This document shows, piece by piece, positions 26,801 through 27,230 of a stretch of DNA of 64,000 nucleotides. Made by a program: the position numbers and the translations under genes. The notes beneath the pieces were generated by a model. That model was not told the origin of the DNA, did not search any database, and worked only from the letters and a program-made list of their open reading frames with translations. How positions within the stretch are numbered: the first letter of the stretch is position 1; the number at the start of each line of letters is the position of its first letter. Source of the DNA: Fragum whitleyi (Eukaryota > Mollusca > Bivalvia > Cardiida > Cardiidae); the NCBI GenBank assembly GCA_948146395.1, contig OX411548.1, positions 66,049,020 through 66,113,019 on the forward strand, in the 5' to 3' direction.

Positions 26801-27230
26801 AACCAGGCTATATCATGTTATTTTCGGCGTTATTTCGGGACCTAAACTTACCCAATCCTTTCATGGCCCCGTGTAACTTTTCGGCGTTATTTCGGGACCT
26901 AAACTTACCAAATCCTTTCATGGCCTCGTGTAACTTTTCGGCGTTATTTCGGGACCTAAACTTACCCAATCCTTTCATGGCCTCGTGTAACTTATCAGCG
27001 TCATTTCGGGACCTAAACTTACCCAATCCTTTCATGGCCTCGTGTAACTTATCGGCGTTATTTCGGGACCTAAACTTACCCAATCCTTTCATGGCCTCGT
27101 GTAACTTATCGGCGTTATTTCGGGACCTAAACTTACCCAATCCTTTCATGGCCTCGTGTAACTTGTCGGCGTCATCGCTCGCCTCCTCGTCAGTGTAAAT
27201 GAAGTCGCCATAAACAGTTCCCTTCGAGCA
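11991..27230 (-). CDS. Annexin A (four-repeat annexin, eight coding exons found, start-codon exon missing)
   Basis: Joining minus-strand exons 27230-27137, 24908-24814, 24433-24320, 20282-20192, 18000-17855, 16435-16258, 14659-14547 and 12128-11991 gives one open frame of 322 residues plus stop. All junctions are GT-AG and phase is kept throughout. Annexins are Ca2+-dependent phospholipid-binding proteins of the cytosolic membrane face. Numbering from the first residue found, repeat 1 has G30-L-G32-T with E72, and repeat 2 has G102-F-G104-T with D144; both match the type II Ca2+ site spacing. Repeats 3 and 4 keep GT and the distal acid but lack the first glycine (E and C instead). The N-terminus GTVYGDF resembles the GTV start of other annexins. 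The exon with the initiator Met should lie above 27.3 kb on the minus strand and was not identified. The family assignment is firm; the subfamily is not. Confidence 0.95.
12292..12441. mobile_element. Palindromic MITE (GTGGACCCGTAATAG family)
   Basis: Termini AAGGTGGTTGACCCGTAATAG and GGATCCACCACCTT with an inner inverted repeat around CGAGGTTTCCTAATG. In annexin A intron 7. Confidence 0.85.
12722..13050. repeat. Tandem duplication with decayed copies of annexin A exon 7 end
   Basis: About 150-bp units (12722-12846, 12847-12999 and a partial third). Each full unit ends with a match to the last 30 nt of annexin A exon 7: LIRIIVTRAE at 12965-12999 (one mismatch in 30 nt) and LISKIVTRAE at 12814-12848. 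Neither is followed by GT, and the upstream part of the exon is absent, so they are non-functional fragments in intron 7. Confidence 0.85.
13045..13485 (+). mobile_element. Interspersed element with GAACAACAAAAGCT palindrome
   Basis: Starts GAGGATAATCGTTTGTTTC, has an inverted repeat of TGTTCA..AAAAGCTATATTTTCA around CACGAGCCACGAGTG, then CGCGTCATTTTGCACGTGAT and GATAATCTACCGTTATT. Copies at 25800 (minus), 39025, 53440 and 59600. Confidence 0.8.
13494..14526 (+). mobile_element. Composite element, AGCTCCACTGGC type, in annexin A intron 7
   Basis: Starts TTTTTAGCTCCACTGGC with folded complement GCCACTGGAGCT, then a GTGCGTCC-rich stretch. About five units of roughly 185 bp follow (ATATCAACCAAATTTTACAT). 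It ends with TGTGGAGCGACACAAGCC just before annexin A exon 7. Confidence 0.85.
14547..14659 (-). CDS. Annexin A exon 7: start of repeat 4
   Basis: Encodes VKIVKDTIGYFCERIHKATE, then CIGTNDRELIRIIVTRAE. It is 113 nt, matching annexin B. The acceptor is ATTTTCAG and the donor GTATGT. The repeat 4 loop reads TECIGT where most annexins have MKGxGT. The 3' 30 nt of this exon recur twice as decayed copies in the next intron (12814-12848 and 12965-12999). Confidence 0.95.
14779..15122. mobile_element. MITE with TTAACCCTTTCCTGT termini
   Basis: Perfect terminal inverted repeats TTAACCCTTTCCTGT and ACAGGAAAGGGTTAA. Contains a hairpin at about 14838-14898 (TTTGTAGAAAAAG against CTTTTTCTACAAA). In annexin A intron 6. 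Confidence 0.85.
15692..16133 (+). mobile_element. MITE Q (TACAGTTA..ATCGTGAAATTGAC family)
   Basis: Right end TCAATTTCACGA..TAACTGTA, inner palindrome ATATCGCTAATTTTGTTCAG, and CGCTGAGTGAATGATTT. One of about a dozen copies in the window. In annexin A intron 6. Confidence 0.85.
16258..16435 (-). CDS. Annexin A exon 6: repeat 3
   Basis: Encodes AGVAELGTNEFDFNKILC to DGYLTI, the whole helix A-D core of repeat 3. It is 178 nt, the same as in annexin B, and 46 of 59 residues match that exon by eye. The acceptor is GTCATCAG and the donor GTAAGA. The first Gly of the Ca2+ loop is Glu, so this site is probably weak. Confidence 0.95.
16525..16682. mobile_element. Small MITE with GTGCGTTTTTAGGATTAAG termini
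   Basis: Inverted ends GCGTTTTTAGGATTAAGA and TCTTAATCTAAAAAACGC, with an inner ATTTTTAATCGGGATATCTC repeat. In annexin A intron 5. Confidence 0.8.
17300..17625. repeat. Second copy of the 8521-8855 repeat
   Basis: The same order of phrases with an inner palindrome TTGATAATTGTCTCGG / CCAATTATCAA. In annexin A intron 5. Confidence 0.75.
17688..17799. repeat. (AAT)n microsatellite
   Basis: About 37 AAT units with two CAG interruptions, ending 55 nt from annexin A exon 5. Open frames here (poly-Asn, poly-Ile) are repeat artefacts. Confidence 0.95.
17855..18000 (-). CDS. Annexin A exon 5: end of repeat 2 and linker to repeat 3
   Basis: Encodes AYEHELADDFDCDTSGHFER through the REEGGADEETAKEDAQTLID linker, 49 codons with the split first codon. 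D in CDTSG is the distal ligand of the repeat 2 Ca2+ site. The acceptor is CCCACAAAG and the donor GTAAGT. Confidence 0.95.
18290..19500. repeat. Worn interspersed repeat, no gene
   Basis: Both ends resemble 780-1110 in the same order (GACGTTTCATAAAAC.. AAAGTGGGCAT.. and TTACTAAACTTACG..TACTTTTCAG), with about 850 bp of AT-rich sequence between. The short open frame at 19315-19503 lies in this repeat. In annexin A intron 4. Confidence 0.55.
19600..19935 (+). mobile_element. Degenerate MITE Q
   Basis: Contains ATATCGATATTTATTACCTCCC, GAGCGTTTTTGATCGATTGG and GGATGAGAGTCAATTTAA in family order, with high divergence. Confidence 0.6.
19938..20178. mobile_element. MITE (GAGCCTCTGCGTGACATTTCC) next to annexin A exon 4
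   Basis: Termini GAGCCTCTGCGTGACATTTC and GGAAATCACACGCACAGGCTC, inner palindrome CTGGTCAGACTGTGCGGATG. Full copy, ending 13 nt from the exon 4 boundary. Confidence 0.9.
20192..20282 (-). CDS. Annexin A exon 4: repeat 2 calcium loop
   Basis: Encodes GFGTDENAIIGVMCTQTNSD to AYRA, the GxGT loop and helix B of repeat 2. It is 91 nt, the same as in annexin B. The acceptor is ATGTTTCAG and the donor GTACAG. The exon is squeezed between two interspersed elements, one ending about 13 nt downstream of its donor end and one starting about 11 nt upstream of its acceptor. Confidence 0.95.
20294..20775 (-). mobile_element. AGCTCACCTGAGC-type element remnant
   Basis: On the minus strand the 3' end reads CAGGTGAGCGATTAAGAG..CCCTCTTGT (20334-20294), and a worn start with CCTGAGCAC and GGCATCCGTCCGTCGTCCGG lies near 20775-20700. 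Its CCCTCTTGT end sits directly before the annexin A exon 4 acceptor. Confidence 0.75.
21455..21748 (-). mobile_element. tRNA-derived SINE, second family
   Basis: The head at 21748-21665 (minus) starts ACCAGCC and ends GGGCTGGT, with GCTCTGTTGGTAAAGC and GTGGGTTCGATTCCC (A and B boxes). Extra bases after the acceptor stem argue against a working tRNA. The body has GGATGAGACGTTAAACCGAG and CGTTAAAGAACCATGGCGG. Unrelated to the CAATCAATC SINE. Confidence 0.75.
22684..23330 (+). repeat. Interspersed repeat S, copy 1
   Basis: Colinear with 52290-52862: AAAGGTTGTACATGTAAAAC, GTCTCGAGACTGACTGTCG, CGGCTAATTACTACAAGTTG and a terminal palindrome TGGTGAACGA..TCGTTCACCA. In annexin A intron 3, antisense to the gene. 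The stretch from 21750 to 22680 shows nothing recognisable. Confidence 0.8.
23604..23632. repeat. Short perfect palindrome
   Basis: ATTGAAGACTGTTTTAAACAG and its complement. A single-arm relative lies at about 15436 (ATTGAAGACTG). Confidence 0.7.
23845..24276 (+). mobile_element. MITE Q
   Basis: ATCATGAAATTGACAAGGTG to GTCAATTTCACGATGTAATT, with the inner TCTATTTTGTTCAGG / CTGAACAAAATTAGCGATA palindrome. Ends 43 nt from annexin A exon 3. Confidence 0.85.
24320..24433 (-). CDS. Annexin A exon 3: end of repeat 1 into repeat 2
   Basis: Encodes ELMDRLKSELGGDFEDTI and onward to LHDSMS, 38 codons. It holds the distal acidic ligand of the repeat 1 Ca2+ site (E in KSEL). The acceptor is TATCTTTCAG and the donor GTAAGT. 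A MITE ends about 43 nt beyond the donor. Confidence 0.95.
24814..24908 (-). CDS. Annexin A exon 2: repeat 1 helices A-C
   Basis: Encodes GTDEGEIIKTIVNLTNAQRQ onward to FGQLSGD, the GTDE/NAQRQ signature of annexin repeat 1. The acceptor is GCTTTCAG and the donor GTAAGC. The 95-nt length equals annexin B exon 2. The glycine codon at the 5' junction is split (G|GT). Confidence 0.95.
25490..25735 (-). mobile_element. Degenerate MITE Q fragment
   Basis: GTGAAATTGTTTGTCATTCCG, AAACACTCACTCAAATCG and AATCGTTCAAGACGATCAAC follow family order on the minus strand. Half of the element is missing. Confidence 0.6.
25800..26225 (-). mobile_element. Interspersed element R, minus copy
   Basis: AACGGTAGATTATCACTTGA, GACGCGCTTTACGG, and an inner palindrome GTGAACAACAAAAGCT / AGCGTTTGTTGTTCAC. 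Reverse of the copy at 13045. In annexin A intron 1. Confidence 0.8.
26448..26604 (-). repeat. Older diverged copies of the 57-bp donor unit
   Basis: Two full 57-bp units and one partial, about 210 bp further into intron 1, clearly related (MKGMGKFMARN against MKGLGKFRSRN) but much more diverged. The first still has GGGTAAGT; the second has GGGTAGGT; the third has lost the motif. Confidence 0.85.
26817..27176 (-). repeat. 57-bp minisatellite carrying six annexin splice donors
   Basis: Six near-identical 57-bp units. Each encodes ADKLHEAMKGLGKFRSRN on the minus strand and contains GGGTAAGT or a close variant. The donor hexamers (plus-strand ACTTAC) start at 27131, 27074, 27017, 26960, 26903 and 26846, exactly 57 bp apart. 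The unit spans the end of annexin A exon 1, its donor and the first bases of intron 1. The frame stays open through all six units. Confidence 0.95.
27137..27230 (-). CDS. Annexin A exon 1 found: N-terminal segment and start of repeat 1
   Basis: Encodes CSKGTVYGDF through HEAMKGLG, 31 codons plus one base. The acceptor is a strong pyrimidine tract ending TTCTTCAG (AG at 27232-27231). The first donor is GGGTAAGT with intron position 1 at 27136. The last third of the exon plus the donor is the first unit of a 57-bp tandem array, so the true exon end could be at any of six in-frame donors. The 27137 end aligns with annexin B and with the family and is preferred. Phase 0 at the 5' end implies an upstream coding exon. 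Confidence 0.92.

Follow-up and report, generated by a model that had tools for sequence, protein, structure and literature searches.

Annexin genes and the exon edge in annexin A

The window, i.e. the complete 64,000-nucleotide stretch of Fragum whitleyi DNA that was analysed, was found to contain two divergently oriented annexin genes, annexin A and its paralogue annexin B, as well as a tandem array located at an exon edge of annexin A (Table 1). The spliced 322-aa product of annexin A was matched by PF00191 in four stretches (262 bits), corresponding to four annexin repeats of ~66 residues, and its best match in the PDB was annexin VI (8.6e-134). Pfam matches to Sigma70_ner and HEAT_PBS were below their cut-offs and were disregarded. 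Within repeat 1, residues M28, G30, G32, T33 and E72 (numbered from the first exon found) are kept, which we take to represent the type II Ca2+ motif (GxGT, followed about 38 residues later by an acidic residue). An upstream annexin A exon carrying a start codon was looked for and not found; otherwise, the gene looks intact as read from its sequence. The annexin A exon at 18000-17855 is preceded by AAG (18000-18003) rather than CAG or TAG, and annexin B has CAG at that place.

Table 1. Annexin genes, array units and predicted splice donors in the window (a slash marks the exon-intron border)
Feature	Position	Strand	Description
Annexin A	11991..27230	-	Eight coding exons, GT-AG introns, 322 aa, four annexin repeats
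First annexin A exon found	27137..27230	-	94 nt with donor 1; CAG acceptor before 27230, GTAAGT after 27137
Next annexin A exon (GTACCGATGAAGG...)	24814..24908	-	CAG acceptor; predicted partner of all six donors
Six-unit array U1-U6	26829..27170	-	TRF, repeat search, alignment, unit list
Donor 1 (TGG/GTAAGT)	27135..27136	-	Predicted product 322 aa, any upstream exon not counted
Donor 2	27078..27079	-	Predicted product 341 aa
Donor 3	27021..27022	-	Predicted product 360 aa
Donor 4	26964..26965	-	Predicted product 379 aa
Donor 5 (TTG/GTAAGT)	26907..26908	-	Predicted product 398 aa
Donor 6	26850..26851	-	Predicted product 417 aa
First in-frame stop (TAG) past the array	26808..26810	-	Precedes the decayed block
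Decayed copies D1-D3	26445..26614	-	TRF, repeat search, alignment; overlooked in the earlier note
Annexin B	51395..63283	+	Divergent paralogue, 73% identical to A; single donor at 51501

The first annexin A exon that was found ends with ...ATGAAAGGATTGG/GTAAGT in phase 1, and joining this exon (27230-27137) to the CAG/GTACCGATGAAGG exon rebuilds GLGTDE. The earlier note had described the copied sequence as the end of exon 1 of annexin A; its assignment to an exon end holds, whereas the acceptor and the absence of an in-frame ATG point to an internal exon. An internal position is probable, because the exon is preceded by a pyrimidine-rich tract and CAG, there is no in-frame ATG ahead of the array, and the same arrangement is seen in paralogue B. 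Counting against this assignment, the frame is open across the acceptor up to an upstream ATG (ORF 26808-27353), and an unspliced start at an ATG upstream of 27230 is possible.

Comparison of the two genes showed that the seven exons following the first one found are equal in length between A and B, with dN of 0.17-0.19 and dS of 1.8-2.6 (saturated), and gene A is, on this sequence comparison, constrained against B. Elsewhere in the genome, the PF00191 search returned 43 exon-level matches. For an ANXA7-like protein from Mya arenaria, identity among the fetched exon matches was highest in A and B (65% and 62%), and the lowest E-value for this protein went to another locus. Over four exons, a further gene elsewhere in the genome shares 73-77% identity with an annexin of Mactra antiquata. 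Both genera being heterodont, these matches point to a heterodont bivalve as the probable source of the DNA.

A tandem array of exon end and splice donor

Each 57-bp unit of the array comprises the last 34 nt of the annexin A exon, followed by the GTAAGT donor and the start of the intron (23 nt including the donor). TRF reported a period of 57, 6.1 copies and 96% matches (26824-27172, minus strand), which places the array among minisatellites (head-to-tail copies of a unit of about 10-100 bp at high identity). Six tandem copies of an annexin exon end plus its donor, as the earlier note had proposed, were confirmed by TRF, the repeat search, alignment and the unit list, and the copying of helix A within the unit was also confirmed. 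A 34-base degenerate unit-core pattern with three mismatches allowed gave eight matches in the window, compared with 0.00 expected (100 shuffles).

Pairwise, U1-U6 differ at 1 to 3 of 57 positions (about 95-98% identity). U3, U4, U5 and U6 each possess private differences, the array of 349 bp contains no N, and neither the E-to-G change in U6 nor the L-to-F change in U5 has a counterpart in the remaining units. With respect to intron gain, which would call for a new donor-acceptor pair within the duplicated stretch, no pyrimidine tract was seen ahead of an AG inside the unit when this was read by eye. Ordered (clinal) growth within the six units is not claimed, since the Mantel correlation was low (r 0.13, permutation p 0.40). 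Dispersal of the unit, or its origin from a transposon, was set aside, as a genome search with the 349-bp array, which overlooked even the nearby decayed block, matched only the array itself; diverged dispersed copies may nevertheless exist.

Deeper in the intron, three decayed copies (D1-D3) differ from the main units at 14 to 22 of 57 positions. Their donors are located at 26580 (gtaaaa), 26524 (gtaggt) and 26467 (gtaagt), and by eye a 7-bp inverted repeat (CCATGAA...TTCATGG) surrounds the donor of D3. The spacing of 56 and 57 represents a 1-nt period slip, D2 contains a stop, and a TAG precedes the block, so that these outer copies are out of frame, as expected for an intron; the predicted product from any decayed donor beyond the TAG is 140 aa. 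Divergence from U6 was lower in the donor core (of 35 positions) than in the left part of the unit (of 19 positions) for D1 (7 versus 12), D2 (6 versus 8) and D3 (4 versus 7), with Fisher p values of 0.003, 0.06 and 0.04, respectively, from tests that are not independent.

At the matching place, annexin B has one donor, as previously asserted, which reads GTATGT. Furthermore, of eight regions taken upstream of annexin matches elsewhere in the genome, six were shown to possess an exon end at the same G/GT place with one donor each, and in the other two a matching exon end was not found by pattern. No remnants of the array were detected in these paralogues when the 35-nt unit core was slid along them: the best match was 18/35 in the intron of B and 18-24 in the six regions, compared with 18.5 on average and a maximum of 22 in the shuffled intron of A. 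The match of 24/35 falls on the exon end of the paralogue itself, with no further copy apparent.

Predicted products and coding frame of the array

All six donors of the array are intact and in phase 1, and splicing each of them to 24908 is predicted to give an open frame that lengthens in steps of 19 aa, in agreement with the prior claim that every donor joins the next exon in a common frame. Each of the six predicted junctions reads MKG(L/F)GTDE; this restoration of the motif is largely automatic, because the exonic portion of each unit runs up to its donor and helix A is provided anew by the last copy. The peptide added per unit is ADKLHEAMKGLGKFRSRNN, i.e. 19 residues. The proposed multiples of 19 residues were thus correct, whereas the peptide as originally written out had 18 letters and is corrected here. 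The longest predicted product (417 aa) retains the four annexin stretches detected by Pfam.

The predicted energy of the U1 duplex was -10.3 kcal/mol for five of the donors and -9.1 for that of U5. Together with decayed D3, the five donors at -10.3 are the strongest predicted among the annexin donors of gene A, the other six of which lie between -4.3 and -9.4; the values for annexin B lie between -5.5 and -10.7. The array therefore has the composition of alternative tandem 5' splice sites (one acceptor with several donors that are competent by sequence), with six donors of strong predicted U1 pairing, all in phase. AlphaFold modelling of the contiguous 126-aa array exon gave a low-confidence structure (pLDDT 52) with a helix at each of the six copies; this is only suggestive that extra ADKLHEAMKGLGKFRSRNN units would be helical and lie ahead of an intact core if later donors were used.

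The shared open frame was compared with chance expectation. As the exon part of the unit is already coding, only a length divisible by three (1 in 3) and the eight codons at or after the donor (about 0.57 open) are free, giving a probability of about 0.19 for an in-frame open unit. At this level, the shared frame alone provides no evidence of selection. One of the three antisense frames of the unit is likewise open, which is within chance, and an antisense ORF (26803-27198) was attributed to the periodicity of the array read from the opposite strand. Among U1-U6, four nonsynonymous and two synonymous events were counted, against 128:34 possible (the D-to-E change of U5 and U6 being counted once). 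Codon constraint among the units is not visible in this comparison, which has little power.

Donor choice and readings of the array

Published rules for equal 5' splice sites conflict, favouring either the first site or the intron-proximal site. With somewhat better than even confidence, we regard the array as a 57-bp minisatellite of exon edge and donor in which the first donor is predicted to be the one mostly used, so that later copies would be removed as intron and the array would be nearly neutral. A duplication across the exon edge would have given rise to the minisatellite, which may have grown by unequal exchange or replication slippage. The spliceosome would prefer the first donor on a first come, first served basis, and a later donor may occasionally be used, in which case each unit would add 19 residues ahead of the restored helix A and Ca2+ loop, leaving the annexin core unbroken. 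First-donor preference was adopted as the default because, in the designed reporter library of PMC6783452, the first donor was predominantly used when both tandem donors were consensus, a rule that context can break.

Use of the first donor retains an ordinary 94-nt exon and an ordinary annexin. Tandem arrays, eleven in number as merged by hand from TRF and including the two blocks of this array, cover 7,490 bases (11.7%) of the window, a sum that omits three short arrays at 41524, 57794 and 60843. The decayed outer copies, the absence of visible codon constraint and the chance-level frame accord with a neutral minisatellite no less well than with the functional readings, and all three are also compatible with use of later donors. 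Several points count against near-neutrality with first-donor use: the array itself grants the first copy no local advantage, since every unit presents the same exonic context; a unit of 57 bp with an open frame would suit selection for in-frame use too; and the better-kept donor core in D1-D3 is not explained by plain decay.

Conversely, the proximal rule (Reed and Maniatis 1986; Hicks 2010, as cited in PMC3464268) predicts use of the last donor. The donor at 26851 would then dominate, adding five helix-linker units (+95 residues) to the main protein, the length of which would be set by unit number; we consider this rather unlikely. It is favoured by donors that are nearly alike in predicted strength and local context, and by a 417-aa frame that is open and keeps its four annexin stretches. 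However, the exon would be 379 nt, which is long for an internal exon, and the E-to-G change of U6 and the L-to-F change of U5 would sit in the core-forming helix. Moreover, the first of two equal donors was preferred in the PMC6783452 library, and the proximal donor favoured in the virus described in PMC3464268 was also the one with better U1 pairing.

It is quite unlikely, in our assessment, that splicing draws on several donors, either in parallel or in a tissue-dependent manner, yielding a 322-417 aa isoform ladder as a selected N-terminal length system. The near-equal donors, the open frames and the core motif restored at every junction would suit such a system, as would the helix predicted at low confidence (pLDDT 52) for each unit of the folded contiguous array. 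The lack of visible codon constraint, in a comparison of little power, and the frame expected by chance at about 0.19 argue against it. Furthermore, no KFRSRN-like linker was present among 215 distinct homologues (the best 120 of 2,407 and the best 120 of 993 matches from two protein searches, each among 7,996 scored candidates), of which 214 contain at some point a helix-A to GTDE-like motif without interruption. This homologue test is weak, since none of the listed homologues is more than 49% identical to gene A and the species' own protein is thus probably absent from the set. A splicing odometer, i.e. a copy-variable minisatellite in which donor choice and genotype would set 0 to 5 basic 19-residue helix units before an intact core, also appears improbable. 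The functional roles suggested in the earlier note, a tunable length and a load on splicing, are without support in the sequence considered here. Finally, that the unit number reflects an assembly artefact or a rare allele is very unlikely: the units are highly similar and a 200-N gap lies 2.5 kb away, but the array is short and free of N, and a simple artefact would not create the private differences in U3, U4, U5 and U6.

No account of a run of six near-identical in-frame donors derived from a gene's own exon edge was found in a search of open-licence literature (titles and abstract openings in one library). Three related systems were compared. Human segmental-duplication genes with internal tandem repeats at their exon-intron boundaries (PMC2812944; De Grassi and Ciccarelli 2009) share the minisatellite-type repeat at the boundary and the possible splicing change; there, new introns arise via cryptic sites, whereas here the gene's own donor is copied and no new intron is needed. 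The tandem 5' splice sites of PMC6783452 similarly represent competing donors with one acceptor and a longer exon, but that library has two sites, compared with six near-identical sites in near-identical context, 57 nt apart, in annexin A. In the potato RdRp gene (PMC4974935), a tandem duplication across an intron-exon boundary also copied splice signals; it duplicated the acceptor side and created a new intron, in contrast to the donor side here, where no good acceptor was seen in the unit by eye.

With six near-equal predicted donors that differ mainly in position, in a gene that is apparently intact, the array represents a natural and unusually clean test case for rules of donor position, in which variation in unit number among individuals, if it exists, would supply a dose series. 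Use of later donors, should it occur, would make the array a simple way for a minisatellite to lengthen a protein with its fold unbroken.

The window also contains exactly 200 N at 29688-29887, which may be a scaffold join or a withheld stretch. Long tandem arrays were detected by TRF at 1538-3079, 4085-5224, 6573-8058, 13755-14419, 53979-54845 and 61687-62720, four of which have a unit of 165-168 bp, in addition to the microsatellites TAA (17687-17798), AATA (35937-36141) and TTCA (42989-43054).
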